Shown here: positions 142-42,631 of the stretch, piece by piece | Layout: every line of letters starts with the position of its first letter | How positions within the stretch are numbered: the stretch's first letter is position 1 | From: Candidatus Abyssobacteria bacterium SURF_5 | Lineage (GTDB): Bacteria > Abyssobacteria > SURF-5 | Reading direction: 5' to 3' | Assembly: GCA_003598085.1 (NCBI GenBank) | Contig: QZKU01000113.1 | Coordinates: 1 to 43,129, forward strand | Length of the DNA: 43,129 bases | Made by a program: the position numbers and the translations under genes | Notes under the pieces: model-generated | Told to the model about the DNA's origin: nothing | Databases searched by the model: none | The model's input: the letters and a program-made list of their open reading frames with translations, nothing else

Positions 142-166
142 AAATTCGATTGCGGAGATGCAGCAT

Positions 167-240
167 GAGCCCCCTGGGGGCTCCCGGCGGCTCAAACCGG
201 ATTGAACACCCCGACATAATAATTCAACCTTTCAATCCGG
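167..240 (+). promoter_or_regulatory. Structured 5' leader of the formate dehydrogenase mRNA
   Basis: Two perfect hairpins lie between the predicted transcription start and the ribosome binding site. The first pairs GAGCCCC (167-173) with GGGGCTC (177-183) around a 3-nt loop. The second pairs CCGGATTGAA (197-206) with TTCAATCCGG (231-240) around a 24-nt loop. Such a leader could be an attenuator, a protein site or a metal/cofactor-sensing RNA; no known riboswitch class was recognised by eye. Confidence 0.45.
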
Positions 241-284
241 GGATAACCAGATTGTCTGCCGTAAATCGAAGAGAGGGAGACTCT

Positions 285-3200: not shown

Positions 3201-4391
3201 ACCAACGGACCGGCATCGATCCTCTATGCCATGGGCATCACCCAGCACACGCACGGAACCGATAACGTGCTGGCCGTCGCCAATATCTCGATGCTCACCG
3301 GCAACATCGGCAAGGAATCGTCCGGCGTCAATCCGCTGCGCGGGCAGAACAACGTGCAGGGAGCTTGCGATATGGGCGCGCTGCCCAACGTGTTCCCCGG
3401 ATACCAGCAGGTCGCAGACGAGGCATTCCGCGACAAATTCTCAAAAGCGTGGCGAAGCAAGCTCAGCCCAAAGCCGGGATTGACCGTAGTTGAGATGATG
3501 AATGCGGCCGCGCACGAAAAGATTCGGGCGATGTACATCATGGGCGAGAACCCGATGCTCTCCGATCCCGACCTCAACCACGTCCGCGAGGCGCTCAAAG
3601 CTCTCGATTTTCTCGTCGTGCAGGATATCTTCCTGACCGAGACGGCGCAGCTTGCCGACGTGGTCCTGCCGGCCGTAACGTTTGCGGAAAAGGACGGCAC
3701 GTTCACAAATACGGAGCGACGCGTCCAAAGAGTACGGCAGGCGATCCGGCCTGTCGGAAACGCCAAGCCCGACTGGCAGATCATCGCCGAGATCGCCACC
3801 CGTATGGGACGCAAGGACTTCTCGTACGATTCCGCCGAGGAAATCTTCAAAGAACTCGCAAGCCTGACGCCGCAATATGCCGGCATCACCTACGACCGCA
3901 TCGACCGGAACGGTCTCCAATGGCCGTGCCCGACAAAGGAGCATCCCGGCACCATCTTCCTCCATACCGGCCAGTTCAGTCGCGGCAAGGGCAAATTCAC
4001 TCCGCTCCAGTACCGGCCGCCCGCGGAACTCCCCGACGCGGAGTACCCGCTCGTCCTCACCACCGAGCGCAGCCTGTTCCATTACCATACCGGCACGATG
4101 ACGCGCCGCGTCAGCGGCCTCAACGTCATGCGGAAAGAAGAACTCGTCGAGATCAACGCGCGCGACGCTCAAAGCCTCGGCATCGCCGACGGCGAAATGG
4201 TCAGGGTGAAGTCGCGGCGAGGCGAGGTGACCGCGCGCGCGAAAGTCACCGCCGACTCCGCGCCCGGCGAGGTCTCGATGACGTTCCACTTCTCCGAAAG
4301 CCCGACAAACGCGCTCACTAATCCAGCGCTCGACCCGGTCGCCAAGATCCCGGAATACAAGGTCTGCGCCGTCCGCGTCGAGAAGCTGTAA
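285..4391 (+). CDS. fdhA: Selenocysteine formate dehydrogenase alpha subunit fused to NuoG-like and GltD-like electron-entry modules
   Basis: Catalyses formate oxidation or CO2 reduction at a Mo/W-bis-MGD site. Read with TGA 2760-2762 as selenocysteine, it is 1368 aa with Sec826 in the context DHCARL-U-HSPTVAG, the classic Fdh active-site motif. Domains in order: a 2Fe-2S domain (Cys46, 57, 60, 73); a GltD/NfnB-like flavoprotein of about residues 100-520 with dinucleotide motifs VAIVGAGPAG (205) and VAVIGGGNTA (337); a Cys-rich segment CLECGC; two 4Fe-4S motifs (634-644, 673-684); the molybdopterin Fe4S4 motif (Cys704, 707, 711, 739); then the MopB body and a C-terminal molydopterin-dinucleotide-binding domain. 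ATG 285 is chosen because GAGAGGGAGA precedes it; upstream frame extension would run through the leader hairpins. The fusion suggests soluble NAD(P)H- or ferredoxin-linked electron exchange (inference). Conventional gene calling would split it at the TGA. Confidence 0.95.
2760..2793 (+). promoter_or_regulatory. Bacterial SECIS element at the Sec codon
   Basis: The in-frame TGA (2760-2762) is followed by a hairpin pairing GTGGCC (2775-2780) with GGCCAC (2786-2791), extended by two more pairs (one a T-G wobble), around the loop GGTCT (2781-2785). The loop GGUCU and its start 18 nt after the UGA are the same as in the E. coli fdhF SECIS as I recall it. SelB binding to this loop would direct Sec insertion. 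The reading frame stays open on both sides with uninterrupted Fdh homology. Confidence 0.93.
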
Positions 4392-5345: not shown

Positions 5346-7643
5346 ATGAAAACTCCGAGCGCCGGAAAGATTTTCAGGAACCTGCTGCTTGGACTCGGCG
5401 CAGTGCTGGCCCTGCTGGTTATTTCCACCCTCATCTTCACGCACTTCTATTTCAAGCGAACCTTCTCGCATCAGATCAACGGCGTCGTCATTCGCTGCTC
5501 TGACGGTATCCTCCGGAAATCCGCCGCCGATTGGGAGCCGCTGCATCCGGGAGATAATATAGCGCCGGGCATGCGCATTCGGATGCCGGTGGGGCGCCGG
5601 TCTCTCCTGTCGTTCAGCGGCATCCGGCTCTTGACGGACGGGCCGGCTGAGATTTCTATCAGGAACATCCGCAGTTTTTCGATTCAGAGCGGCACTATCG
5701 CTGTCGCTGCGGGATCGGTAGCGGAGACGCCCGAAATATTCTGCGGCGCAGGATGCGTAAAGATGTCTGATTCCGTCATGAGACTTGCAGCCGAACCGCC
5801 AACCCTCGCTTGTGTAACCGGCAAAGCCATCCTCACGGCGAACGGAGCACAGTATATGCTCGAGCCGGGCTCGCAGGCCGATCTCTCCGGCCAGCAACCG
5901 TCGCTCACGTCTTCTCAACTAGATGACCCCTTTAAACGGTTGAAAGTGTCAACGCTCGACCGGATTCGAAACCGGTTTGAAGAGGTGCTGGCGAAATACG
6001 CGCGGGCGCAAGAGAAATTCCAGTCTGCGCGCGCTCAGCGCCCCAATATCTGCACCGGCGGTTTCTTCGCCGATGGATTGCAGTTCGCTTCATACCTGCG
6101 GCCGCGGCCATTTCTGCTGGCTCAGCGCGATGCGGCCGCCGTTGCCGATTACTACGACAACATCTTTGCGCCAGGCAACCGCTCGATTTCCATTGGAAAA
6201 CAAAAGGCCATCCCGCTCACTCCCCACTTCGGCTCGAGTTGGCCGATGTGGTCGCACGACGGCTCGATGGTCGCGTTCATCGAGGCCAGCGTCTACGCCT
6301 GGCAGGCGCGGGTGCGGGTAGCCCGGCTCGACGACCTCGATCATCCGTGGGATATCTCGCAGGACCACGACGATGTGCTTTCGTTCTTCCCCATCGCGTG
6401 GGCGCCTGATAACCGCCACGTGCTCTTCATGGTCCCGGACAGCGTGAATCCCGACCCGAACGCGAGCATCCTGTGGGAAGGTCCATACCACATCATGATC
6501 GCGCCCATCGATCCGGCTGAAGGGCCGCTCCGCGAGTTCGAAAGCCCGTTCAGCGACCTTCCCATTTCCCTTCCGCTGCCGATTGGAAAAACCATTTCAC
6601 CCGTTATAATAAATTTGCCGTGGGGCGACGCGCTGCTCTGCGCCAACTGGGGCAACCTGGCGTACATCCCGATTGAACCCGACGGCCAGGCCGTCGCGGG
6701 CGCGCCCGGATTGTTCCTCACGAACTTCAACCCGCGAAAAGATTTTATCGCCGGCGGCATCTGGTCGCCGTCGGGAAGCAAGATCCTGTTTGCGGCCGCT
6801 GAGGATTTACGGTTCGATAACGGCGACGTGTTTATCTTGAATGATGTCGAGGATATCCTTGACGGTCTCGCCCTGCCCCCGCGCACGCTCGATGACCCGC
6901 GCATCAAAAGAGTCGCGTCCTCAAAGAATTTTCAAATTCCCGGCAGCTTCTCGTATGACGAATCGCTCGTGTTCTTCCAGGAAGACGTGAATGGCGCCTG
7001 GACCGCCTGGTATCCTGCCCTTTTACTCAATTGTGATTTCGATCTTTTCTACGCCGACGCCCGGCCCGATCAGCCGAGCAAATTCACCCAAATCCATCTG
7101 CCCGGTAATCAGATGTTCCTGCGGCTGTCGCCCGAGGGCAACCGCGTCGCCTACTCGTACGCCAACCACCCCGACTATGAGCTTCGTGTGGTCTCCTTCG
7201 ATATCGAGGCCGATATGGATACGGATCTCGGCGGCGTCCTCATCGACAACAGCGGCACGACCCTCATCGTTCCGCCGGGCGCCCTCGAAGAAAACTTCAA
7301 GGTCAAGATCAGCACTCCGTTCACCATCGAAGAAGAGGCCGAGGTGATGCCGGGCGAAACTCCTCTGTTCGCGATGAGGATGCTCGATGCGCAGGGACTG
7401 GAAAAACCCAAGTTCATCGAGCCGATGACTCTCACCATCAGGTACACCGACGACGAGGTTGCCGGTCTGGATGAAGGCATGCTTGAGATTTACTACTACG
7501 ATGAAAGCGATCCGGCGCATCCCGCATGGGTGCCCCTCGGCGGAACGGTCGATCCCGAGCATAACGAGATCACCATCGACATTCAACATTTCTCATCGTT
7601 CTCAGTCGGCTTGAAAAATAACTTACACGCTGTCAGGGAGTGA
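5346..7643 (+). CDS. Membrane-anchored FecR-like / beta-propeller / ZU5-like protein (A1)
   Basis: A 765-aa protein of unknown function. An N-terminal signal anchor (about residues 12-35) precedes a FecR-like domain (about 45-130; pattern VIRCSDG, W..L.PGD...G.RIRMP, LLSFSG). A charged helix (about 200-230) leads to a TolB/PD40-type propeller with blades PMWSHDGSMVAF, IAWAPDNRHVLFM, GIWSPSGSKILFA, FSYDESLVFF and LRLSPEGNRVAYS. The last 150 residues (GGVLIDNSG, VPPGALEENFKVKI, ending HFSSFSVG) resemble a ZU5-like beta sandwich. The ATG follows GGAGGGG. Most of the protein is predicted to be extracytoplasmic. The paralogue at 8925 has the same architecture. A role in envelope sensing or surface binding is inference. 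Confidence 0.88.
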   Translation: MKTPSAGKIFRNLLLGLGAVLALLVISTLIFTHFYFKRTFSHQINGVVIRCSDGILRKSAADWEPLHPGDNIAPGMRIRMPVGRRSLLSFSGIRLLTDGPAEISIRNIRSFSIQSGTIAVAAGSVAETPEIFCGAGCVKMSDSVMRLAAEPPTLACVTGKAILTANGAQYMLEPGSQADLSGQQPSLTSSQLDDPFKRLKVSTLDRIRNRFEEVLAKYARAQEKFQSARAQRPNICTGGFFADGLQFASYLRPRPFLLAQRDAAAVADYYDNIFAPGNRSISIGKQKAIPLTPHFGSSWPMWSHDGSMVAFIEASVYAWQARVRVARLDDLDHPWDISQDHDDVLSFFPIAWAPDNRHVLFMVPDSVNPDPNASILWEGPYHIMIAPIDPAEGPLREFESPFSDLPISLPLPIGKTISPVIINLPWGDALLCANWGNLAYIPIEPDGQAVAGAPGLFLTNFNPRKDFIAGGIWSPSGSKILFAAAEDLRFDNGDVFILNDVEDILDGLALPPRTLDDPRIKRVASSKNFQIPGSFSYDESLVFFQEDVNGAWTAWYPALLLNCDFDLFYADARPDQPSKFTQIHLPGNQMFLRLSPEGNRVAYSYANHPDYELRVVSFDIEADMDTDLGGVLIDNSGTTLIVPPGALEENFKVKISTPFTIEEEAEVMPGETPLFAMRMLDAQGLEKPKFIEPMTLTIRYTDDEVAGLDEGMLEIYYYDESDPAHPAWVPLGGTVDPEHNEITIDIQHFSSFSVGLKNNLHAVRE

Positions 7644-8924: not shown

Positions 8925-11270
8925 ATGAAAAGTGCACCCCTCAAATCCCTCACCAAGCTCTTCACTGTAATAGGATTAATGATTTTCCTGCTGCTTGTTT
9001 ATACCTTTCTGCTTGCACGTCCGTCATCAAACCCCGCTTCTTCCCCTGAGGTATCGAGCAGCACCAAAGAAGAACTCGTTCAGGGACATCATTCAATTCC
9101 CAGCCTTGGCGCTTTCGTTATCCGCTGTTCCGATGGAATCCAGCAAATGTGTTCCGGTGAATGGAAACAACTGAAACCGGGAGAAAAAATCCACGATGGC
9201 ATGCGACTCAGGATGCCTGGCTCTCATCGATCAATCCTTTCATTCAGGGGCATTCGCTTGATGACCGAGGGCCCCGCAGAGATAACTGTACACCATTCTG
9301 ATGCCTTATCCCTCAACAGTGGCAAACTCGCTCTTGCAACAGGCAAATTGGAAAATCCATTCTCTGTCACTTTTGGCCCGGCTCGCGCTGCCGTTGAATC
9401 AAATTCGATCCTGACTATGGAGGCTGACCCGCCGGCGGTCACCTGCATAAGTGGAGAGGCAGCCTTCTCGACAAGTGGAGAAGAACACAGGCTTGAGCCG
9501 CATAAGCAAGCGCTCGTCTTCGCCAAAGAAGTTCAGGTGGTATCCACGGTGGCACAGAACCCATTCGCCGGACTCAATGTGACAACGATGGACAGGATTC
9601 AGGACCGATTTCAAAAGATAGTGACCAAATACGCTGGAAAACATGTCAAGAGCATTGAGAAATCCCTCCTTCACCCGGCGCTTGCTCTTACCGGCAGCCG
9701 CTTCGATGGCGGAATTCGCTTTGTATCATATGCGCGGCCATCCCCGCCCACCCTGGCCAAGACAGATACAACCGCAGTCGCCGAATATTATGAAAGCCTC
9801 TTCTCTCCCAGCAACCGCTCGATTGCCATCGGAAAGGAAAAGATTGTCTCCGTCACCCCTTATAGCGCCGCGAGTTGGCCTATGTGGTCTCACGACGGCT
9901 CGATGATCGCCTTTATTGAAACCAGCATCTATTCTTGGCAGGCAAGAGTCAGAGTCGCCCGACTCGACGACCTGGACCATCCATGGGATATTTCGCAGGA
10001 TTACGAGACGGTTCTTCCTTACTTTCCGATTGCATGGGCGCCCGACAACCGGCACGTCCTGTTCATGACGGCCGACCACATGGAATTCGGGAAAGATGGT
10101 TATGAATGGTGGTGGGCAGCCCCTCTTCATCTGAAGATCGCTCCAATCGATCCAAACGAGGGACCGATTCGCGAATTTGAAAGCCCGCTGCCGGAATCGC
10201 GTGTCTCTTTCGATTTCAGCACCGGCAGGACCATGGCGCCTATCATCATGAACCTGCCGTGGGGCGACGCGCTCCTCTGCGCCAATGCGGGCAATCTCGC
10301 ATACATCCCCATCGAACCCGACGGACAGGCCGTCGCCGGCTCCCCCGGGTTCTTTCTCACCTCTTTCCATCCATATAAGTGTTACATCGCAGGAGGCATC
10401 TGGGCGCCGTCGGGAAACAAAATCCTGTTCGCAGCCGGCGAGAATATGATGCTCGATAGCGGTAATGTTTATATCCTTTATGACATTGAAGATATTCTCG
10501 ACGGCGTTGCCCCGCCTCCAATTTCGCTGGACGATCCACGAATTAAACGGGTAGCCCCTTCCCCAAACACCCAACTCCCAGCCAGTTTCTCCTATGACGA
10601 ATCGCTCGTCTTTTATCAAGAGGACGTAAACAGGGCTTGGAAATTCGCGACACCGAAAGACATAACGCCTTGTGATTTTGATCTCGTTTATGCCGATGCG
10701 AGGCCAAATCAACCGAGCAAGTTCAGCCAGATTCATTTAGCGGGAAACCAGGCTTTCCTGCGGCTGTCACCCGAAGGGAATCGTCTGGTGTATGCATACT
10801 ACAATCATCCGACATATGAGCTGCGTGTGGTCACCTTCGATATCGAGGCCGATATGGATATGGACCTTGGCGGCGTCCTCATCGACAACAGCGGCACGAA
10901 CCTCATCGTTCCGCCGGGCGCCCTCGAGGAAAACTTCAAGGTCAAGATCAGCACTCCATTCACCATCGAAGAAGAGACCGAGGTGATGCCGGGCGAAACT
11001 CCTTTGTTCGCGATGCGAATGCTCGATGCGCAGGGACTTGAAAAGCCCAAGTTCATTGAACCGATGACTCTCACCATCAGGTACACCGACGATGAGGTCG
11101 CCGGCCTTGATGAAGGCATGCTCGAGATTTACTGCTACGATGAAAGCGATCCGGCGCATCCAGTCTGGACGCCGCTCGGCGGAACGGTCGATTCCGAGCA
11201 TAACGAGATCACCATCGACATACAGCATTTCTCATCGTTCTCGGTCGGCCCGAAGAATAAGAGAAACTAA
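8925..11270 (+). CDS. Membrane-anchored FecR-like / beta-propeller / ZU5-like protein (A2)
   Basis: A 781-aa paralogue of A1 with the same order: signal anchor (about residues 15-33), FecR-like domain (VIRCSDGIQ, SILSFRGIRLMTEGPAEI), helical linker (LDRIQDRF-type), propeller blades (PMWSHDGSMIAF, IAWAPDNRHVLFM, GIWAPSGNKILFA, LRLSPEGNRLVYA) and a ZU5-like C-terminus. The N-terminal half has clearly diverged from A1, while the last 414 coding bases differ at only about 30 positions. The ATG follows AAAGGAGAG by 7 nt. It sits 67 bp after B1, so the A-B order repeats. The N-terminal half looks more AT-rich than A1. Confidence 0.88.
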   Translation: MKSAPLKSLTKLFTVIGLMIFLLLVYTFLLARPSSNPASSPEVSSSTKEELVQGHHSIPSLGAFVIRCSDGIQQMCSGEWKQLKPGEKIHDGMRLRMPGSHRSILSFRGIRLMTEGPAEITVHHSDALSLNSGKLALATGKLENPFSVTFGPARAAVESNSILTMEADPPAVTCISGEAAFSTSGEEHRLEPHKQALVFAKEVQVVSTVAQNPFAGLNVTTMDRIQDRFQKIVTKYAGKHVKSIEKSLLHPALALTGSRFDGGIRFVSYARPSPPTLAKTDTTAVAEYYESLFSPSNRSIAIGKEKIVSVTPYSAASWPMWSHDGSMIAFIETSIYSWQARVRVARLDDLDHPWDISQDYETVLPYFPIAWAPDNRHVLFMTADHMEFGKDGYEWWWAAPLHLKIAPIDPNEGPIREFESPLPESRVSFDFSTGRTMAPIIMNLPWGDALLCANAGNLAYIPIEPDGQAVAGSPGFFLTSFHPYKCYIAGGIWAPSGNKILFAAGENMMLDSGNVYILYDIEDILDGVAPPPISLDDPRIKRVAPSPNTQLPASFSYDESLVFYQEDVNRAWKFATPKDITPCDFDLVYADARPNQPSKFSQIHLAGNQAFLRLSPEGNRLVYAYYNHPTYELRVVTFDIEADMDMDLGGVLIDNSGTNLIVPPGALEENFKVKISTPFTIEEETEVMPGETPLFAMRMLDAQGLEKPKFIEPMTLTIRYTDDEVAGLDEGMLEIYCYDESDPAHPVWTPLGGTVDSEHNEITIDIQHFSSFSVGPKNKRN

Positions 11271-25218: not shown

Positions 25219-26274
25219 CTATTGAAAGAGCCTTTTGTTGCGGGCTTTCTTGCGCGCGGCTTCAGGCGTGATCGTGCAGCTCTGGACCAGTTCAAGCAAG
25301 TGCTCGTCCAGAATCTGCATCCCGTACCTGCGCCCCGTCTCCATGATCGAGATCATCTGCTCGATTTTTCCTTCGCGAATGGCGTTGGAAATAGCAGGAA
25401 TGCCAATCAGGATTTCGGCGGCGGCGACCATTCCGGAGCCGTCGGCGCGCGTCAGCAGTTGCTGGGCCACAACGCCGGTCAGCGTTTCCGATAGCAGCGT
25501 CCGTACCTGGCTCCTCTGTTCGAAGGGGAACACGTTCACAATCCGGTTGATGGTCTTGGCGGCATTATCGGTGTGAAGGGTTCCGAACACCAGCGCGCCG
25601 GTTTCAGCGGTGGTGAGCGCTGTCGAGATCGTCTCCAGGTCGCGCATCTCGCCCACCATGATCACGTCGGGATCCTGGCGAACCGCCACGCGCAGGGCCG
25701 ATGAGAAACTGTCGGTATGCGGACCCACCTGGCGCTGCGTGATGATGCTGTTGATATTCTTATGCAGGTATTCGATTGGCTCTTCAATCGTGATAATGTG
25801 GCAGTGGCGCGTCTTGTTGACGTAGTCAACCATTGAGGCCAACGTCGTTGTCTTGCCGCTGCCTGAAGGCCCGCACACCAGAATAAAGCCCCGCTGCATC
25901 GACGCCAGTTTCTTCACGCCTTCGGGGAATCCCAATTCTTCCAGTGTCCGAATTTTGGAGGGAATGGCGCGGAACGCGATGGCTATCCCGTGGGACTGCA
26001 TGTAGACGTTGCTTCTGAAACGGGAAACGCCCGGCAGTTCGTACGCCAAGTCGAGCTCGCCCTCATCCTCGAGACTTCTGATCTGCCTGTTCGTCAGAAT
26101 CTCGTAGACCAGCGGGCGCAAAATGTCGTCCGTCATGACATCGCAATTGTTGCCGAAAGTGATCGGCATCAGCTCTCCGTGCACCCGGACAACAGCCCGC
26201 GAGCCCGACATCAGCATCAAATCCGATCCGTCTTTCTCAACCAGAAATTCGAGAAATCTATCTATTTCAGCCAC
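25219..26274 (-). CDS. pilT: PilT-like twitching ATPase, type 1 (fourth gene of the operon)
   Basis: A 351-aa hexameric secretion ATPase of the PilT type, which powers type IV pilus retraction at the inner membrane. Motifs: Walker A GPSGSGKT (135-142), Asp box IITIEEPIEY (160-169), Walker B DPDVIMVGEMRD (201-212), His box AETGALVFGTLHT (223-235), and the C-terminal AISNAIRE, close to the PilT hallmark AIRNLIRE. The start is GTG with GAGGTCG upstream. It opens MAEIDRFLEFLVEKDGSDL and is closest in pattern to the gene at 27414. It ends 45 bp from the convergent acyl-CoA dehydrogenase. Confidence 0.92.
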   Translation of the reverse strand: MAEIDRFLEFLVEKDGSDLMLMSGSRAVVRVHGELMPITFGNNCDVMTDDILRPLVYEILTNRQIRSLEDEGELDLAYELPGVSRFRSNVYMQSHGIAIAFRAIPSKIRTLEELGFPEGVKKLASMQRGFILVCGPSGSGKTTTLASMVDYVNKTRHCHIITIEEPIEYLHKNINSIITQRQVGPHTDSFSSALRVAVRQDPDVIMVGEMRDLETISTALTTAETGALVFGTLHTDNAAKTINRIVNVFPFEQRSQVRTLLSETLTGVVAQQLLTRADGSGMVAAAEILIGIPAISNAIREGKIEQMISIMETGRRYGMQILDEHLLELVQSCTITPEAARKKARNKRLFQ

Positions 26275-26292
26275 TAGTCGACCTCGATCGTT

Positions 26293-27396
26293 CTACCGCC
26301 TTGCTTCCTTGTGCCGTTTTTCTTCTCCCCTCTTCTGCTCGACTATGAACTCGCGCAGCAACGCCTTGTCCTCTATCTTCACCTGCGCCACCTTCGGGTC
26401 AATCTTGCCCGACCGGAGAAGCTCGATGATGTGCTCGTCCATCAACTGCATGCCGAACTTTTTCCCGGTTTGCATCGCCGAGGGAACGCGATAGGTGTCG
26501 CCGTGCCGGATCAGGCTGGCGACGGCGGATGTATTGATCATCACCTCAATCGCGAGTACCATTCCGTTGCCTTCACGATTGCGCATTAACTGCTGCGATA
26601 TCACGCCCACCAGCGATTCGCCGAGCATCGTGCGCATCATGAATTGTTGTTCCGGCGGGAACACGTTGATGATGCGCTCGATCGTTTTCGCGGCTCCCCT
26701 CGTGTGCAGCGTGCTGAACACGAGATGCCCCGTCTCCGCCGCCGAGACCGCCAGCGAAATCGTCTCCAGGTCGCGCATCTCGCCCACCACGATCACGTCC
26801 GGATTCTCGCGTACCACCGATCGAAGAGCAGAAGCAAATGTTCGGGTATGCGTCCCCACCTCGCGCTGATCGATATAAGCACTTTCATTAATGTACTGGA
26901 ATTCGATGGGGTCCTCGATCGTGATAATGTGGCAGGCGCGCTCCCTGTTGATCAAATCCACCAGAGCGGCAAGCGTGGTCGATTTCCCGCAACCCGATGG
27001 ACCTGTTACAAGAAACAAACCCTGCTCGCGCCGCGTTATTTCCTTGACAACCTCGGGAAGACCGATCGAATCGGCCGATCGGATCGCGCTGGGAATGATC
27101 CGGAACGCCCCGCTGACCCCGCGTTCCTCCTGGTGAATATTCACCCTGAAGCGGCCAACCCCCTCAATCGCATACGAGAAATCTATCTCCTTGTGCCGGT
27201 CAAACTCCTGCAACTGCACCTCATTCATGATCTCCAGAAGTTCCTGCCGATTCTGTTCCGGGGAACGGACGCCCGAGCCTTCCATCTTGATGATATTGCC
27301 GTACATCCGGATCATGGCCGGCGAACCGGAGCACAGATGCACGTCGGAGGCTTTCATTTCTTTTGCGCGAATCAGAACGGAATCTATTGCGGGCAT
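26293..27396 (-). CDS. pilT: PilT-like twitching ATPase, type 2 (third gene)
   Basis: A 367-aa PilT/PilU-type ATPase. Walker A is GPSGCGKS, with Cys-Gly-Lys-Ser in place of Ser-Gly-Lys-Thr. It has IITIEDPIEF, DVIVVGEMRD and AETGHLVFSTLHT. The C-terminal retraction motif is changed to AVASLIRHGDTYRVPSAMQTG, and the tail (FIVEQKRGEEKRHKEARR) is basic. It opens IDSVLIRAKEMKASDVHL, matching the type of the gene at 28483. The ATG follows AGGAGAG. It lies 18 bp upstream of the next gene in the operon. Confidence 0.92.
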   Translation of the reverse strand: MPAIDSVLIRAKEMKASDVHLCSGSPAMIRMYGNIIKMEGSGVRSPEQNRQELLEIMNEVQLQEFDRHKEIDFSYAIEGVGRFRVNIHQEERGVSGAFRIIPSAIRSADSIGLPEVVKEITRREQGLFLVTGPSGCGKSTTLAALVDLINRERACHIITIEDPIEFQYINESAYIDQREVGTHTRTFASALRSVVRENPDVIVVGEMRDLETISLAVSAAETGHLVFSTLHTRGAAKTIERIINVFPPEQQFMMRTMLGESLVGVISQQLMRNREGNGMVLAIEVMINTSAVASLIRHGDTYRVPSAMQTGKKFGMQLMDEHIIELLRSGKIDPKVAQVKIEDKALLREFIVEQKRGEEKRHKEARR

Positions 27397-27413
27397 ATCT
27401 CTCTCCTGCTTGA

Positions 27414-28472
27414 TCAGTTAAAGCGGTGCTTCTCCAGCGCCTTTTCCCTGGCGGATTCCTGTGAAATAACGCCCTGCTCCATCAGGCGCAGGAGGTGATC
27501 GTCCAGCATCTGCATCCCTTGACGGGTGCTCGTCTGCATGATCGACACAATCTGCTCGATTTTGTTTTCACGGATCGCATTGCGTATGGCCGAAGTGCAG
27601 ATCATGATCTCCATCGCGGCGATCCGGCCTTTCTTGTCAGACCGCTTCAAGAGAGTCTGCGCGATAACGGCCGAAAGGCTCTCGGAAAGAAGCGTTCGTA
27701 TCTGGTTCTGAGCCTCGTTCGGAAAAACGTCGATGATTCGGTTGATCGTTTTGGCGGCACTGTTTGTGTGAAGTGTGGCAAACACGAGCGAACCGGTCTC
27801 GGCCGCGGTAAGAGCCAGCCCGATCGTCTCCAGATCGCGCATCTCGCCCACCAGAATGATATCCGGGTCCTGCCGCAAGGCCACACGCAATGCAGCCGAG
27901 AACGAGTTCGTATGAACCCCCACCTCCCGCTGAGTTATCAGGCAGCTCTTGTTCTTGTGGACGAACTCGATGGGATCCTCGATCGTGACAATGTGGCCTT
28001 CTCGCTCATCATTGATCTGGTCCATCATCGCGGCAAGACTGGTCGTTTTGCCGCTCCCCGTGGGCCCCGTAACAAGGATCAATCCGCTGCTGAAGCGCGC
28101 GATCTCTTTGAGCTGCTCCGGCAGTCCGAGATCGTCGACACTGGCTATGTTTGTCGGAATCGTCCGCATTACCGTCGACGGGCCGCTTATCTGATTGTGC
28201 ACGTTCACCCGGAATCTGGCGACGCCCTCCAGCTCGTACGCCAGATCGAGATCGCCCGTCGCCTCAAAATGCCGAATCTGATCCTCATTCAACATCTCAT
28301 AAATAAGCCCGCGATTTATCTCCGGTGTCAGGACGACCCCTCCATCAAGACCCCAGTCGATCCTTCTCAGGTCGCCGTGTACCCTGATCAATGGGCGTGC
28401 GCCGCACATCAGATGAAGATCCGAGCCTTCTTCATCAACCATGAACTTCAGTATCTTGTCGATTTCAGCCAC
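27414..28472 (-). CDS. pilT: PilT-like twitching ATPase, type 1 (second gene)
   Basis: A 352-aa PilT ATPase with Walker A GPTGSGKT, IVTIEDPIEF, DIILVGEMRD, AETGSLVFATLHT and the best match of the four to the PilT C-terminal hallmark (SAIRNAIRENKIEQI). It starts at GTG and opens MAEIDKILKFMVDEEGSDLHL, the same pattern as the gene at 25219. It lies 10 bp after the first gene and 17 bp before the third, so translation is probably coupled. Confidence 0.92.
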   Translation of the reverse strand: MAEIDKILKFMVDEEGSDLHLMCGARPLIRVHGDLRRIDWGLDGGVVLTPEINRGLIYEMLNEDQIRHFEATGDLDLAYELEGVARFRVNVHNQISGPSTVMRTIPTNIASVDDLGLPEQLKEIARFSSGLILVTGPTGSGKTTSLAAMMDQINDEREGHIVTIEDPIEFVHKNKSCLITQREVGVHTNSFSAALRVALRQDPDIILVGEMRDLETIGLALTAAETGSLVFATLHTNSAAKTINRIIDVFPNEAQNQIRTLLSESLSAVIAQTLLKRSDKKGRIAAMEIMICTSAIRNAIRENKIEQIVSIMQTSTRQGMQMLDDHLLRLMEQGVISQESAREKALEKHRFN

Positions 28473-28482
28473 GGGAACCTGC

Positions 28483-29580
28483 TTATGTTTTCACTCTTGC
28501 GCGGGGCTTATCGACTTTGCCGTCCGACAGGTACGAGCGCACCAGGTCCTTGTTCACCGCCATGTAGTATGCATGCTTCGGGTCCACTTTTCCCTGCTGG
28601 AGGAGTTCGATAATATGGTCGTCGAGCAGGCGCATGCCGTACTTTCGGCCCGCCTGCATGTATCCCGGCAACTGATACGTTTTGTCGTCCCGAATCATCG
28701 TCTTCACGGAAGGAGTCGCTATCAATACTTCCATGGCCGCTATGCGGCCGGTTCCTTCGGCATTGCGGATCAACTGCTGGGAGATGACGCCTCCCATCGA
28801 CTCGGACAGCATCGTCCGTATCTGTTTCTGCTGGTTGGGCGGAAACACGTTGATGACTCGCTCAATGGTCTTGTACGCGCTCAGCGTGTGAAGCGTGCTG
28901 AAGACCAGGTGCCCCGTCTCGGCGGCGGTGATCGCCATCGAAATCGTCTCGAGGTCGCGCATTTCACCCACCAGGATCACGTCAGGGTCCTCGCGAAGAG
29001 AAGCGCGCAACGCGGCGGCAAATGATTTCGTGTGGATGCCCACCTGCCGCTGATTCACCTGGCTCTTGATATTCTTGTGAACAAACTCTATCGGATCCTC
29101 GATGGTGATAATATGCTCGCCGCGTTCGGAGTTCACCAGATGCACCAGCGCCGCCAGCGTTGTCGATTTGCCGCAGCCTGCCGGACCCGTCACCAGCACG
29201 AGCCCGTTGCGCAATCGCGTCAAACCTTTGACGGCATCCGAAATACCAATCTCGTCGGCGCTCAGGATATCGGACGGAACAATGCGGAAAGCCGCCCCGA
29301 TACCTCGCTCTTCCATGTATACGTTGGCCCTGAACCGGCTGATTCCGGGAATCTCGTAGCAGAAATCAACTTCCCGGTGAACCTCGAACTCCGCCTTCTG
29401 TTCATCAGTAAATATCTCCATGATCATCTTCTGCGCCGTCCGCTTATCGATATCATGCGAGTCGGGAAGCTTCTTGATGTCGCCGAAATGCCGGATCATC
29501 GGAGGCATGTTAATAAGGATGTGCACATCCGAAGCCCGCAAGTCGAGCGCCTGGCGGAGGATTCTGTCCAGCTCGGCCAT
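28483..29580 (-). CDS. pilT: PilT-like twitching ATPase, type 2 (first gene of the operon)
   Basis: A 365-aa PilT/PilU-type ATPase with Walker A GPAGCGKS, IITIEDPIEF, DVILVGEMRD and AETGHLVFSTLHT. The C-terminal motif is SVKTMIRDDKTYQLPGYMQAG, as in the other type 2 member, with a basic tail (KVDKPRARVKT). ATG 29580 (MAELDRIL) is chosen over GTG 29616 because it aligns with the starts of the other three. It is the promoter-proximal gene, about 93 nt from the predicted start site. No pilin, PilB, PilC or secretin gene is near. Confidence 0.92.
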   Translation of the reverse strand: MAELDRILRQALDLRASDVHILINMPPMIRHFGDIKKLPDSHDIDKRTAQKMIMEIFTDEQKAEFEVHREVDFCYEIPGISRFRANVYMEERGIGAAFRIVPSDILSADEIGISDAVKGLTRLRNGLVLVTGPAGCGKSTTLAALVHLVNSERGEHIITIEDPIEFVHKNIKSQVNQRQVGIHTKSFAAALRASLREDPDVILVGEMRDLETISMAITAAETGHLVFSTLHTLSAYKTIERVINVFPPNQQKQIRTMLSESMGGVISQQLIRNAEGTGRIAAMEVLIATPSVKTMIRDDKTYQLPGYMQAGRKYGMRLLDDHIIELLQQGKVDPKHAYYMAVNKDLVRSYLSDGKVDKPRARVKT

Positions 29581-29679
29581 TCCTGCCTCTGCATCTGAGC
29601 GCGCCTCCCGGCGCACCCTCTTGAGGTGTAGTTACATAATTTTGCTGTATATAAAAGAAAAGCCTTCGGAAGTGCTGTA

Positions 29680-35118: not shown

Positions 35119-35243
35119 TATATGAATATTAATATCATCATTACCAAATACTTAAGCCTTGACAATGAAACTGCTTCGTGGCCCGAAAAGACCATAGATC
35201 ACACCCTTCCGCCATACACGCACCGGCTACCGTGGAGGACCAT

Positions 35244-38162
35244 ATGAGATTCACGCGAAGAGACTTCTTGAAAGTGAGCGCCACAACGACTGCAGCCCTT
35301 GCCCTCGACTCGCTCGGGTTTCTCGGCGGAATCGCAGGCGCGACCGAGAAGGTCTTTCAGGAATGGAAGTACGGCGGTTGGGAGGACCTGCACCGAACCG
35401 AATGGAAGTGGGACAAGGTGACCTTTGGGACGCACCTGGTCGACTGCTACCCCGGCAACTGCCTCTGGCGAGTCTACACAAAGGACGGCATCGTCTGGCG
35501 CGAGGAGCAGGCAGGCAAATACCCGGTCATCGACGCGACCGGCCCCGACTGGAATCCGCGCGGCTGCCAAAAGGGGTGCTCCTTCAGCAATATGATGTAT
35601 AACCCCGACCGAGTGAAGTACCCGATGAAGCGCGTCGGCCAACGCGGCGAGGGGAAGTGGAAGCGAATATCCTGGGAAGAGGCCTTTGATGAAATCTGCA
35701 ACAATTTGATAAACGCCATCAAGACCAACGGCCCCGAATCGATCATCTTCGAGCCCGGCCCCGGCAACGGCGGCTGGATACACCTCATGGCGCTCTGGGG
35801 CTTTTTCCAGACGCTTGGCGCGACAGAATTGGACCTCGATTCCACCATCGGCGACTTCAACAAGGGCGTATTCGAGACCTTCGGCAAATTCCAGTTCTGC
35901 GACTCGGTCGACGGCTGGTTTTTCGGCAAATTGCTGCTTATCTGGCACATGAACCCGGTGTACACCCGAATCCCCTCATACCATTTCATCTCCGAAGCGC
36001 GCTATCACGGCGCCGAGATCATTACCGTCGCGCCCGATTACTCGCCGTCCGCAATCCATGCGGACGAATGGATTCCGGTCGAGCCCGGCGCCGATGCCGC
36101 ACTCGGCCTCGGTATAGCACAAGTGCTTGTTTCACAAGGCAATTACGACACCGCTTTTGTCAAGGAACAGACGGATTTGCCGCTGCTGATCAGAACGGAT
36201 ACGGGCAAATTCCTGCGCGAGACCGACTTGACGGGCGTCGGACGCGAGGATCAGTTCTACTTCTGGAATCCGGCCGCAGACGCGCCAATCAAGGCGCCTC
36301 GCAACACGTTGGCGCTCCCCTGCGATCCGGCCCTCGAGGGGAACTACTCGGTTAGGCTCAAGGACGGACAATCGGTCGAGGTAAGACCTGCTTTCGCTCT
36401 TTTGCGCGAACAATTGGATAAAAATTACACGCCCGAGCAGGCATCGAAGATATGCGGTGTGAATCCCGATACAATACGGCGTCTTGCAGAGAAAGCATGG
36501 AAAGCGAAAGGACACGTTCAGATACTGGTCGGCTGGAACTCGGCCAAATACTACCACGGCGACCTTATGGAACGCGCCATGTGCCTGCTTCTGGCGCTCA
36601 CCGGCAGCGTCGGCAACAAGGGCAGCGGTATCCGCGGCTGGAGCGAGTCTTTATTCGAGGGAACCGAGCTGCTCTGGTTCGAGCGCCGCGACGTCGGCAC
36701 TCTCTTTCAGTACGGGCGCTGGCAATTGGGGCGTTTCGTAATGAAGGCCAAGGACCCCGACTTGACCGACGAGATCATGAGGCGCGAGTCCGAAAAACAG
36801 TGGAGCAGACGCGAGGGCACAATGGTGCCCCCCGCATTTCTCTACTATTTCCATTCCGGCTACCGCGACACCTGGAACAACAAGGCATGGCACTGCCCCA
36901 CGATGAAACGGCCTTTCGAGGAATATTTCAACGAGGCAATCGAGCGCGGGTGGTGGCAGGATCTAACCCGCCCGTATCCCGACCAGCAGCCGCTGGTTTA
37001 CTGCTATTTCGGAACAAGCCCGGCCCGCAAAAACCGGGGCTGGCTGAAAAACATCTACCCATCTCTATGGAACAAGTACAAATTCATTTTCACGATCGAA
37101 ACGCGCTGGAGCACGACCGCATTGATGTCCGACATGGTGCTGCCGGGCGCCGGCTTCTATGAGAAAACCGACACGCGCTTCCCCACCCCGCACGTGCCAT
37201 GGCTCACGTTGACCGAGGCCGCTGTCGCTCCGCTCGGCGAAGCCAAAGAAGAGTGGACGATCATGAGGCTGCTCGCCGAGCGCTTGCGCGCGCTTGCGCA
37301 AGAGACCGGCCATGAAAAGTACAAGGACAGGCGCGGCGTTACGCGCGATCTGTCCAAAATAGTTGACGATGTGACGTTCGGGCGCGAGACCGCCGACCAG
37401 GCGCTCAACGATTCGCTCCAGATGAGCGCAAAGCAGGGTTCGCTCCCCCAGGACACAAACCTCGCAACGCTTCGCAAGGAGGGGATCATCCGATTCACCA
37501 AGATATCCGAAATCGATGTTATCGCCTCGCACCTGATGACCGAGATCAAGCCGGACGAGCCGATCGTCCCCCTCACGTTCCACACCGGCCCGAAAAAGAT
37601 CCCCTATCCCACCTACAACCGGCGGATCACGTTCTACATCGACCACGACTGGTTCCTCGAAGCCGGCGAAGGTTTCCCCGTCCATAAGGACAACCCGCGC
37701 ATGGGCGGCAACTACCCTCTGCGCATGACCAGCGGCCATCAGCGCTGGAGCATCCATTCCATCTGGATCACCGACGACACGCTCGCGCGCACGCACCAGG
37801 GACGCCCGTTCATGTTCATGAATCCGGAAGACGCCCAAAAGCGCGGCATCGAGGACGGCGACCTTGTCCGCGTTTATAACGACTTCGACGACTTCAAGGT
37901 GCACGTCAAGCTCACCTCAGCCGCGCGCTCCGCCCAATCGGACGCCGGCCCGCGGCCGGGACAGGTCATCATCTACCACGCCTGGGAGCCGTACCAGTTC
38001 GAGAAATGGAAAAGCTACGACGCCGCTATCCCGGGTATGATCAAATGGCTCGACCTCGTCGGCGGCTACGGACACCTCGACTACTACCGCTGGAACTGGT
38101 GCACCCAGCCCGTTGACCGCGCCGTCTCGGTCGAAGTGGAGAAAGCGCAGGCTGTTGGATAA
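35244..38162 (+). CDS. Tat-exported type II DMSO-reductase-family molybdenum enzyme, hydrocarbon/steroid hydroxylase-like catalytic subunit
   Basis: A 972-aa Mo-bis-MGD oxidoreductase. The N-terminus has a Tat motif (TRRDFLKV, residues 4-11) and hydrophobic stretch, so it should be exported folded. The FS0 cluster ligands are probably His64, Cys68, Cys73 and Cys108 (THLVDCYPGNC, NPRGCQKGC); the His-Cys3 pattern, KDGIVWREEQ and YPMKRVGQRGEGKWKRISW are typical of the type II group of ethylbenzene, alkane and steroid dehydrogenases. Asp204 (TIGDFNKG) is the likely Mo ligand. The C-terminus has the usual MGD-binding domain (SGHQRWSIHS). ATG 35244 follows GGAGG at 5 nt. Unlike known relatives, no iron-sulfur beta or heme b gamma subunit gene adjoins it. 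The substrate (hydrocarbon, steroid or other) is inference. Confidence 0.85.
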   Translation: MRFTRRDFLKVSATTTAALALDSLGFLGGIAGATEKVFQEWKYGGWEDLHRTEWKWDKVTFGTHLVDCYPGNCLWRVYTKDGIVWREEQAGKYPVIDATGPDWNPRGCQKGCSFSNMMYNPDRVKYPMKRVGQRGEGKWKRISWEEAFDEICNNLINAIKTNGPESIIFEPGPGNGGWIHLMALWGFFQTLGATELDLDSTIGDFNKGVFETFGKFQFCDSVDGWFFGKLLLIWHMNPVYTRIPSYHFISEARYHGAEIITVAPDYSPSAIHADEWIPVEPGADAALGLGIAQVLVSQGNYDTAFVKEQTDLPLLIRTDTGKFLRETDLTGVGREDQFYFWNPAADAPIKAPRNTLALPCDPALEGNYSVRLKDGQSVEVRPAFALLREQLDKNYTPEQASKICGVNPDTIRRLAEKAWKAKGHVQILVGWNSAKYYHGDLMERAMCLLLALTGSVGNKGSGIRGWSESLFEGTELLWFERRDVGTLFQYGRWQLGRFVMKAKDPDLTDEIMRRESEKQWSRREGTMVPPAFLYYFHSGYRDTWNNKAWHCPTMKRPFEEYFNEAIERGWWQDLTRPYPDQQPLVYCYFGTSPARKNRGWLKNIYPSLWNKYKFIFTIETRWSTTALMSDMVLPGAGFYEKTDTRFPTPHVPWLTLTEAAVAPLGEAKEEWTIMRLLAERLRALAQETGHEKYKDRRGVTRDLSKIVDDVTFGRETADQALNDSLQMSAKQGSLPQDTNLATLRKEGIIRFTKISEIDVIASHLMTEIKPDEPIVPLTFHTGPKKIPYPTYNRRITFYIDHDWFLEAGEGFPVHKDNPRMGGNYPLRMTSGHQRWSIHSIWITDDTLARTHQGRPFMFMNPEDAQKRGIEDGDLVRVYNDFDDFKVHVKLTSAARSAQSDAGPRPGQVIIYHAWEPYQFEKWKSYDAAIPGMIKWLDLVGGYGHLDYYRWNWCTQPVDRAVSVEVEKAQAVG

Positions 38163-39351: not shown

Positions 39352-41004
39352 ATGAACCACGACTACCCGATCATCGACGCGGATGTCCTTATCATTGGCG
39401 GCGGCAGCGCCGGAGCAATGGCGGCCATCCGCGCAAAAGAAGTTGATCCCGCCCAGAAAGTCGTTGTCTTCGAGAAGGGCCACATCAAGTATTCCGGCTG
39501 CATCGCCCGCGGTATGGATGCGCTCAACATCGTCGCGATCCCGGGCCTCGACACGCCGGAATTATATGTCGAGTCCAACAGCATCGCGTGTCACGGCGTC
39601 ATGGATGAGCCGCAGGCGTACGAGATGGCGAAACGCAGCTTCGGCCTGCTCAAGAAGCTCGAGTCGTGGGACGTGTGCTTTCCCACCGATAAGCACGGCA
39701 ACTACGAAGTCCTGCAAGTGCACCCGAAGGGCAAATTCTGTGTAACCATGAAGGAGCCCGAGCTGAAGACCATCCTCGCCCGCCGCTGTCATGAGCTCGG
39801 CATCGAGATCGTCAACCGGACAATGGCGATGCGCCTCCTGAAGCAGGGCGACGCGGCAACCGGCGCAATCGGCATGAACGTGCGCACCGGCGAGATCGTT
39901 GTCTGCAGGGCGCGCTCGGTTATCCTGAGCGCGGGCGGAACCGCGCGGTTCGGACTCCCCAACAGCGGCTACCTCTATGGCGTCTATGATTTCCCCGGCA
40001 ACACCGGCGACGGCTATATCCTGGCGTACAAGGCGGGCGCGGAGCTTTCGGGCTTCGAGTACACCTGCACCTATTACATCGTCAAGGACATCAACGCTCC
40101 CCTGCTCTATATCACGCTTACGAGGGGCGCACACCTGTTCAATGCGTTCGATCAGCCCTTCCACGAATCGCACCCGAGCATCCCCATGATGCACGCCGAG
40201 CACCAGGCCCACCGCGGCCCCATGCGCATCAAGCTCGACCACCTCCCTGAGGACAAGATACGCGAAATCGAAGACATCCTCTTCAGCACCGAGCGGCCGG
40301 TTCAGCAGCGCTTTTACCAGGGGCGCGACGTCGACTTTCGCACGGGCGAAATAGAGCTGTGGCCGACTGAAGTCTTCCTGTGCGGCGGCCACGGACAGAC
40401 CGGCGTGCGCGTTAACACGAAAGCCGAGTCAACCGTGCCCGGCCTCTACGCCGCCGGCGATACCTCTTTGGTCGCGAGAGGACACCTGACCGGCGCATTC
40501 GTCTACGGCGAGATAGCCGCCGAGAACGCAACCGAATTTGCCGCCGCGCGCGGACCGGTCGAATTGGACAGTTCGCAGGTCGAGGCGTTCATCCGGGAAA
40601 GAGACGAGCGCGGCGACAAACCCAACGGGAAAATCCCGATCGAGGAGTTCGAGTACAAGGTGCGCAGGATGATCAACGACTACATCGTGCCGCCGAAAAA
40701 CAACTACAAGCTCGATCGCGCGATTTGGTGGATGACTCGATTCCGCAAGGACCTGTTCGAGATCGTCAGAGTCAGAGACGTGCACGACCTCTTCAAAACG
40801 TACGAGGTCGAGAACATCATCCAATGCGCACTCATGAGTGCGCTCGCCTCGAAGGAGCGCACCGAGAGCCGCTGGGGGCTGTGGCATTATCGCTCCGATT
40901 ACCCGGCAAAAGACGAGAAGTGGCGCAAGCACATCGTACTGAAAATGGGCGGCGCGTCGCCTGAAGACGTGCTCATTTCGCACGCGCCTGTCTTGACATT
41001 ATAA
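39352..41004 (+). CDS. FAD-dependent oxidoreductase of the fumarate reductase / APS reductase flavoprotein family
   Basis: A 550-aa flavoprotein. The FAD Rossmann motif is VLIIGGGSAGAMAA (12-25). The segment FEKGHIKYSGCIARGMDALN resembles AprA-type proteins (SG..A.G..A.N). Later come AGGTARFG, a GDGYILAYKAGAELSGFEYT substrate-lid region and the C-terminal FAD motif VPGLYAAGDTS. The C-terminal 100 residues are helical, as in AprA/SdhA/FrdA. No signal peptide is seen, so it is cytoplasmic. It is 10 bp before the GltD-like gene and shares its promoter, suggesting one complex. It is not a confident APS reductase: no AprB gene is adjacent, and the substrate is unknown. Confidence 0.85.
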   Translation: MNHDYPIIDADVLIIGGGSAGAMAAIRAKEVDPAQKVVVFEKGHIKYSGCIARGMDALNIVAIPGLDTPELYVESNSIACHGVMDEPQAYEMAKRSFGLLKKLESWDVCFPTDKHGNYEVLQVHPKGKFCVTMKEPELKTILARRCHELGIEIVNRTMAMRLLKQGDAATGAIGMNVRTGEIVVCRARSVILSAGGTARFGLPNSGYLYGVYDFPGNTGDGYILAYKAGAELSGFEYTCTYYIVKDINAPLLYITLTRGAHLFNAFDQPFHESHPSIPMMHAEHQAHRGPMRIKLDHLPEDKIREIEDILFSTERPVQQRFYQGRDVDFRTGEIELWPTEVFLCGGHGQTGVRVNTKAESTVPGLYAAGDTSLVARGHLTGAFVYGEIAAENATEFAAARGPVELDSSQVEAFIRERDERGDKPNGKIPIEEFEYKVRRMINDYIVPPKNNYKLDRAIWWMTRFRKDLFEIVRVRDVHDLFKTYEVENIIQCALMSALASKERTESRWGLWHYRSDYPAKDEKWRKHIVLKMGGASPEDVLISHAPVLTL

Positions 41005-41014
41005 GGAACCTGAA

Positions 41015-42631
41015 ATGCAACGAAGAAATTTTCTGGAAGCGCTCACCGATAATGTAATCGTCGATAACTCGAAATGCATCTACTGCGGCGAATGCATCGA
41101 GGTCTGCGTCCTCGATAACCTCAGGATGCAGCTTGCCCCGTGCCGCTCAGCCTGCCCGCTCGGCGTCAATTGCCACGGCTACGTTCAACTTATCGCGCGC
41201 GGCGACGACGAGACGGCATATCAGGTACTGACCAAAACTCTCCCGTTCCCCGGCATTCTCGCCCGGGTCTGCACCGCCCCCTGCGAGCCTGCCTGCCACC
41301 GGAATACCCAAACGGGAGAGGCGGTCGCTATCCGCGCGCTCAAGAGATATCTGGTCGATTCGATGCACGGAAAAGAACGAGCCGTTCCCGCGCCGGACAA
41401 GGCGACCGGAAAGAAAGTAGCCATCGTTGGTTCGGGTCCCGCCGGACTCATGGCGGCGTTCGACCTGCGCATGCACGGCCATGCGGTCACCGTCTTCGAG
41501 GCGGAAAGCGAGCCCGGCGGCTTCCTTCGCTGGGCGATACCGGAATTCAATCTGCCGCTTAAAGCGCTCCTTGAAGAAATCGACGTGCTGGAGAAAATGG
41601 GCGCCGTCATACACTGCGGCGTGAAGATAGGGAAAGACAAGACGCTGGACGATCTCAAGAACGAGTTCGACGCCGTGATTATCGCCGCCGGCTGCGGCGG
41701 CCACGCCAGGCTCGGCATCGCGGGCGAGAACCTTCGGAACGTGCATCACGGATTGCCGCTGCTCAAGGACGTCCGCTCCGGGCGCGCGCCGGAATTATCG
41801 GGAAACGTCATCGTCATCGGCGGAGGCAACGTCGCGGTGGATGCGGCGCGCACCGCCCTCAGGCTCGGCGCCGGAACCGTTCGCGTCGTTTCATTGGAGA
41901 CCGAAGGCGAGCTGCCCGCGTTCAAGGGCATCGTCAATATGGCGACGGCGGAGGGTATCACATTCGACCACGGCTGGGGCGTCGCCACCATCAAAGGGCA
42001 GAACGGAAAGGCCACGGCTATAGAGCTTCAAAGATGCCTGCGGGTGTTCGACGACTGCGGGAAATTCAGTCCATGCTTCGACTCGTGCGAATTGAAAACA
42101 ATTGAAGCCGATCATGTCGTCATAGCCATCGGCCAGAAACGCGAACACGCATGCCTCGCGGTTTCCGGCATCGTCAATCCTGACGATGCGAAGCCCGACC
42201 CGCTCACGCTCGCAACTTCCGATCCGAAGGTGTTTCTGGCCGGCGACTACGCAACCGGGCCGTCGTCCGTCGTCGATGCGATGGCGTCCGGCAGAACCGC
42301 GGCCGAATCAGTCGACAGATTCCTCAGAGGCAGGCATCTCACCTACGGAAGAGGATATCGCGGACCGGTCGAGCTCGAGTTCGAGATAGATACTGCAAGC
42401 GCATCCAGCCTCGGACGCGTCAAGATTCCGCAAAAGCGCTTCGAAGACAAGGGCGACTTCAAAGAGGTTGGCGGCTCGATTGATAAGGATGCCGCCCGCG
42501 CCGAGGCCTCGCGCTGTTACTCGTGCGGCGGCCCGTTCGGCAAGTTCCGCACGTGCTGGTTCTGCCTCCCGTGCGAAGTCGAGTGCCCGGAGAAGGCCCT
42601 GCGCGTAGAAATCCCGTTCCTCCTGCGTTGA
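41015..42631 (+). CDS. NfnB/GltD-like iron-sulfur flavoprotein with N- and C-terminal ferredoxin motifs
   Basis: A 538-aa protein. An N-terminal 4Fe-4S motif CIYCGECIEVC (21-31) is followed by the GltD-type Fe-S domain (CRSACPLG...CTAPCEPAC). The FAD motif is VAIVGSGPAGLMAA (135-148) and the NAD(P)H motif is VIVIGGGNVAVDAA (265-278). A GDYATGPSSVVDAMASG segment completes the flavin fold. The C-terminus adds CYSCG and CWFCLPCEVECPEKAL (another 4Fe-4S motif). It probably moves electrons between NAD(P)H, ferredoxin and the adjacent flavoprotein. The ATG follows AAGGAA. It uses the same module type as the N-terminal half of the formate dehydrogenase at the other end of the window. Confidence 0.88.
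   Translation: MQRRNFLEALTDNVIVDNSKCIYCGECIEVCVLDNLRMQLAPCRSACPLGVNCHGYVQLIARGDDETAYQVLTKTLPFPGILARVCTAPCEPACHRNTQTGEAVAIRALKRYLVDSMHGKERAVPAPDKATGKKVAIVGSGPAGLMAAFDLRMHGHAVTVFEAESEPGGFLRWAIPEFNLPLKALLEEIDVLEKMGAVIHCGVKIGKDKTLDDLKNEFDAVIIAAGCGGHARLGIAGENLRNVHHGLPLLKDVRSGRAPELSGNVIVIGGGNVAVDAARTALRLGAGTVRVVSLETEGELPAFKGIVNMATAEGITFDHGWGVATIKGQNGKATAIELQRCLRVFDDCGKFSPCFDSCELKTIEADHVVIAIGQKREHACLAVSGIVNPDDAKPDPLTLATSDPKVFLAGDYATGPSSVVDAMASGRTAAESVDRFLRGRHLTYGRGYRGPVELEFEIDTASASSLGRVKIPQKRFEDKGDFKEVGGSIDKDAARAEASRCYSCGGPFGKFRTCWFCLPCEVECPEKALRVEIPFLLR

Follow-up and report, generated by a model that had tools for sequence, protein, structure and literature searches.

Which enzyme does a catalytic subunit belong to, if no partner gene stands beside its own? 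This question is raised by a gene on contig C113 of the deep-subsurface Candidatus Abyssobacteria bacterium SURF_5. The window, i.e. the whole stretch of DNA that was analyzed (43,129 nucleotides), is this entire contig, one of the 145 contigs of a genome of 5,103,455 bases. An earlier note had described the gene product as an orphan, exported catalytic subunit of the ethylbenzene/alkane/steroid dehydrogenase group. We assign a probability of about 0.6 to the reading that it is an isoenzyme α subunit of an anaerobic, water-dependent molybdenum hydroxylase of the AhyA branch, which would be partnered by β, γ and δ subunits encoded on contig C4, and for which an n-alkane would be the likeliest substrate.

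An intact α subunit and its surroundings

The gene is real and encodes an intact α subunit of the type II DMSO-reductase family (Table 1). Its frame is open from 35178, and the ATG preceded by the GGAGGA motif is most likely the start. As the earlier note had stated, there is a Tat signal with the RRDFLK motif, scoring slightly below the Pfam cut-off of 22.7 bits; it may stop near residue 33-34, where we would guess the cleavage site to be.

Table 1. Positions of the α gene and of its features in the window
Feature	Position	Strand	Basis
Catalytic α subunit, AhyA/EbdA-like molybdenum hydroxylase, 972 aa (ATG to stop)	35244..38162	+	homology and trees
GGAGGA, ribosome-binding-site-like, 4 bases 5' of the ATG	35234..35239	+	read from sequence
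N-terminal Tat signal, RRDFLK	35244..35345	+	Pfam TAT_signal, 20.0 bits
FS0 ligands H64, C68, C73 (C-x4-C), C108	35433..35567	+	alignment to EbdA
Pro173, site of EbdA His192	35760..35762	+	alignment
Asp204, Mo ligand (= EbdA Asp223)	35853..35855	+	alignment to EbdA
Lys435 (= EbdA Lys450)	36546..36548	+	alignment to EbdA

The closest solved relative is EbdA of the EbdABC enzyme from Aromatoleum aromaticum (2ivf_A), which aligns over the full length (E 1.4e-226) with 40.4% identity (blastp). Among the NCBIfam models, the type II α model TIGR03479 is the top match (911.9 bits, model positions 1-913 of 913), followed by the EbdA model NF042978 with 796 bits versus an equivalog cut-off of 2000. The curated TIGR03479 cut-off of 984.75, which is missed also by the related α subunit of genome G1144 (932.4), is a naming threshold and no biochemical feature, and it is the ligands and the clade that decide the class. 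In type II α subunits, the FS0 cluster is held by one His and three Cys, and the molybdenum by an Asp (PMC8840923). This set is complete in the window α, and together with the aligned Lys it bears out what had been claimed on cluster ligands and group motifs. The earlier note had also pointed to the first Fe-S loop, and four residues indeed lie between Cys68 and Cys73 (CYPGNC), versus three in NarG and PcrA. As EbdA has five (CWPQGSC), and as the x4 spacer is the rule in the window clade and frequent in presumed Desulfobacterota rows, the spacer is no oddity and was rejected as a peculiarity of this protein. An AlphaFold model on a five-row alignment reached a mean pLDDT of 40.5 and was discarded.

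The α gene is under purifying selection, with a pN of 0.150 and a (saturated) pS of 0.73 in comparison with the α gene on contig C4. Along the protein, mean identity to the paralogues is high near FS0 and the Mo-binding Asp and lowest in residues 481-520 (0.42) and 681-720 (0.34), which is the pattern expected if partners and cofactors are common and the substrate side is variable; one may guess that these two stretches are tied to the substrate channel.

Upstream of the gene lies a response regulator-GGDEF protein, and downstream a DUF1847 protein, an AprA/FrdA-like flavoprotein and a GltD-like protein. No β, γ or TorD gene was found among these flanking genes with Pfam and NCBIfam, as had been noted before, and in a profile search none of the 21 β matches and 3 γ matches of the SURF_5 genome fell on C113. 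The AprA/FrdA-like and GltD-like Fe-S flavoproteins directly downstream of the α gene (39352-42631, plus strand) are cytoplasmic in kind. Elsewhere in the window, the plus strand encodes a formate-dehydrogenase-type molybdopterin protein with a fused NAD(P)-oxidoreductase module (150-4391), the frame of which is interrupted by a TGA at 2760-2762 (context HCARL-U-HSPTVAGL). Formate dehydrogenases have their selenocysteine at this position; the sequence just downstream of the TGA has no unusual fold (z -0.09), and Rfam gave no match across the window. There are also four tandem PilT/T2SSE-type ATPase paralogues with 47-58% mutual identity (25219-29616, minus strand) and two genes in tandem (5346-7643 and 8925-11270, plus strand) whose products are 64% identical and have no Pfam match at 1e-8.

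Partner genes and paralogues elsewhere in the genome

A matching set of β, γ and chaperone genes is present on contig C4, and the term orphan is thus true of the C113 locus and not of the genome, in which the window α is a solitary paralogue. The minus-strand run on C4 comprises genes for MerR, Rieske, Fer4 and Zn-alcohol dehydrogenase proteins, α, γ and β subunits, a TorD-like δ subunit, a cytochrome b and a multihaem cytochrome c. Its γ subunit is of the EB_dh type, and its β subunit (TIGR03478) alone scores above the family cut-off among the 21 β matches in SURF_5. The cytochrome b is in two pieces, the second of which has no Pfam match, and the alcohol dehydrogenase is below every NCBIfam equivalog cut-off and thus generic. 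The search for partner subunits that the earlier note had proposed led to a single β gene above the family cut-off, which adjoins a 77% identical α and an alcohol dehydrogenase, and no known non-hydrocarbon enzyme. The gene at L040:14068-14733 is TorD-like. A second type II complex lies at L111 (G000 C42:78000-90000), with a nitrite-oxidoreductase-like α subunit of 1166 residues, a β subunit below the cut-off and an EB_dh-type γ subunit.

SURF_5 has three further α genes at 76-77% identity to the window α: the one on C4, and two close together on contig C41, around which no β, γ or TorD homologues occur in the stretches read. Our sample of the phylum consists of three genomes (SURF_5, G001 and G002). 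G001 has one operon, three solitary α genes and one β above the cut-off, and in G002 no α passed the search, the operon contig ending within an α gene of which the last residues are readable. As SURF_5 and G001 repeat the pattern of four α subunits and one β above the cut-off, the most plausible reading of the window α is that of a spare catalytic subunit, one of several that share a β-γ-δ set, and most likely it borrows its partners from the C4 set. One solitary paralogue in G001 (L047:8912-11812, contig C77) has an in-frame TGA, which may mean that the copy is decaying, that the assembly is wrong here, or that the codon is recoded. Among eight regions upstream of α genes, no 10-mer is common to at least three.

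A precedent is known from Sterolibacterium denitrificans, whose steroid C25 dehydrogenases (S25DH1-8) are described in the available part of PMC6016249: there are eight α subunits and fewer β-γ pairs, and α1, α2 and α3 were made as complexes with β3γ3, while preliminary experiments with α alone gave neither soluble nor active protein. By analogy, the arrangement in SURF_5 appears to be the same, in another clade. AhyA matches in Abyssubacteria are already published, since CANT-HYD gave AhyA hits in one of two genomes, as stated in the part of PMC8767102 at hand; this fits SURF_5 with its α genes and another genome whose α is lost at a contig end. The layout of one core and four α subunits was not found described in the available parts of the papers cited here by PMC number, and a search for literature on Poribacteria with ethylbenzene dehydrogenase found none.

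Position in the family and the probable substrate

Three trees were computed: tree 1 with 54 rows, tree 2 with 52 rows (34 of the 54, and 18 of the 44 in a further listing; long or redundant rows were dropped) and tree 3 with 27 of those 52. The α with the in-frame TGA entered trees 1 and 2 with an X at the stop and was omitted from tree 3. In all three, the α subunits of Abyssubacteria and a Poribacteria MAG form one group, with 8 rows at a support of 100 in trees 1 and 2 and 7 rows at 100/100 in tree 3. The closest rows outside this group are G1144 (65% identity) and G1098 (59%), and the joint clade has 100/100 in tree 3. Both were found among 395 genomes that belong to the same phylum as G709, 12 of which matched the window protein at E<=1e-80. 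G709 has a QrcB at 969.8 bits, which we take to be a marker of Desulfobacterota, and because of this score we assume that phylum for all three genomes. Within the group, tree 3 pairs the window α with the solitary G001_C176 from another genus (92/96), a pairing absent from trees 1 and 2.

EbdA (the α of G494 is 100% identical to 2ivf), ClrA and all eight α subunits of G426, a 3.1-Mb genome presumed by this number of α subunits to be S. denitrificans, fall outside the window clade, and in tree 3 EbdA and the presumed S25DH rows are excluded with high support. None of the three trees places the ClrA rows among the hydroxylases, and NarG stands apart from these in tree 1 only. As the earlier note had supposed, the window α thus lies within the type II clade, among its hydroxylases. 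Matches to the window protein occurred in 5 of 399, 30 of 297 and 19 of 199 genomes of groups around Aromatoleum toluclasticum and a betaproteobacterial MAG, in samplings with differing cut-offs and overlapping draws, and in 7 of 386 mixed relatives including SURF_5 and G001. A contig scan gave four loci, which says little on distribution, as only two peptide patterns were used.

In the active site, EbdA His192 is replaced by Pro173, and EbdA Asp485 by Leu470. His at the former site occurs in 7 of 52 rows, namely six of the EbdA clade and the adjoining X_G742a, while Pro occurs in 25 of the 52, ClrA among them. According to the accessible part of PMC7803848, every ahy sequence therein has Pro at this site, and SURF_5 sequences are the nearest to oil-field ahyA, references aside. 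As Pro is so widespread, it is consistent with AhyA but no proof. The S25DHs, too, have no His at the rebound site (PMC6153880, as far as available). Of the 15 positions in the peptides encoded by published AhyA primers, the window α agrees in 11, a score equalled by G1144 and two paralogues and exceeded by no row, versus 10 for one presumed S25DH-type row, 7 for EbdA and 3 for ClrA; the forward primer has at most 3 mismatches to the window gene and 2 to G1144. We therefore infer that the window α belongs to the branch of AhyA (Desulfococcus oleovorans Hxd3, WP_012173623), the comparison with AhyA being made via the primer peptides and the Pro residue. AhyA, an alkane C2-methylene hydroxylase whose reaction was deduced from genetics and proteomics (PMC3653055), is favored as a model over the ethylbenzene or sterol options, the difference being that SURF_5 has four α subunits per β and that the window α is solitary.

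Could the gene be accounted for in other ways? The enzyme might hydroxylate side chains of aromatics, or chains of the isoprenoid or sterol-like kind, and not n-alkanes, with the four isoenzymes splitting substrates like the S25DHs. The nearest solved relative is EbdA after all, and isoenzyme arrays with common β-γ subunits are known in sterol degraders, but the clade leaves out EbdA and the presumed S25DH rows, the EbdA residues His192 and Asp485 are missing, and a tertiary alcohol would be useless to the Zn-alcohol dehydrogenase on C4, and we consider such substrates unlikely. It appears improbable that the window α works with the nitrite-oxidoreductase-like β and γ subunits of C42, or without any β: although that set has a fitting type of γ and the window locus has no partners, the C42 β scores 185.7 bits versus the family cut-off of 480.7, its α shares no more than some 25% identity with the window α, and the preliminary S25DH work argues against a function of α alone.

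A type II reductase for nitrate, chlorate, perchlorate or selenate would have the fold, the FS0 ligands and the Mo-binding Asp in common with NarG, ClrA and PcrA, and is nevertheless very improbable, as ClrA (Ideonella dechloratans plasmid), itself a type II α, is only 32% identical and, like NarG in tree 1, placed outside the hydroxylases, and as the NarG model gives 231 bits versus a cut-off of 1084, with C-x3-C in NarG in place of C-x4-C. That the gene is a silent or decaying duplicate is hardly credible: the in-frame stop in the C77 paralogue of G001 indicates that loss is possible in the α set, but the window gene has an intact frame, full ligands, a low pN relative to pS, and a solitary counterpart in another genus. 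As identities of the window α, steroid, ethylbenzene and nitrate/chlorate enzymes were rejected on clade and residues.

A proposed mechanism and the route of the electrons

In the favored reading as an AhyA-type isoenzyme, the window α would be folded with help of a TorD-like chaperone and then bind the C4-encoded β and γ subunits, and the whole complex would be exported by the Tat system. Ethylbenzene dehydrogenase carries out a water-dependent hydroxylation at the molybdenum, and its electrons leave through Fe-S clusters and reach a haem b, the potential of which is +256 mV (available part of PMC8840923). Similarly, Mo(VI)=O of the window enzyme may take a hydrogen from a saturated carbon, and OH would rebound, by which the enzyme probably puts water-derived oxygen on hydrocarbons without air. 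An n-alkane or alkyl chain would thereby become a secondary alcohol, from which the Zn-dehydrogenase of the operon could make a ketone. The electrons would move through FS0-FS4 to the haem b in γ and from there into the cytochrome/Rieske system that the operon encodes, and four α subunits would give a single electron-transfer core several substrate ranges, comparable to Sterolibacterium.

The cytochrome b and Rieske genes by the operon are the most interesting part of the finding. Cytochrome b genes adjoin the hydroxylase genes in all five window-clade genomes with an operon read (SURF_5, G001, G002, G1098, G1144); a Rieske gene is visible in three (SURF_5, G1098, G1144) and a long cytochrome c gene in SURF_5, G001 and G002, the stretches of G001, G002 and G1144 stopping at contig ends with parts unseen. 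Neither of the two EbdA-type loci used for comparison gave a Rieske homologue, and only one has a cytochrome b homologue, of 30% identity. As the module is conserved beside window-clade operons, it likely carries electrons between the γ haem and the quinone pool. More tentatively, and with considerable doubt on our side, the four α subunits of SURF_5 and its relatives may compete for one β-γ core, while a Rieske/cytochrome b complex running in reverse would use membrane energy to drive high-potential electrons into a low-potential quinone pool. By title, nothing on Rieske proteins or reverse electron transport with ethylbenzene dehydrogenase-type enzymes was seen among the literature matches listed. 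If true, such a reversed complex would account for the ability of low-potential anaerobes to carry out C-H hydroxylation.

The AhyA match in an uncultured lineage hereby turns into a concrete layout with several catalytic subunits per electron-transfer core, and with a cytochrome b module (and Rieske, where visible) that stays beside the operon both in the SURF_5 lineage and in G1098 and G1144, the two genomes presumed to be Desulfobacterota. If the proposed reading is true, solitary α subunits should not be dropped as orphans by annotators, and one gene cluster would allow a test of how low-potential anaerobes get rid of the high-potential electrons that oxygen-free alkane hydroxylation sets free.
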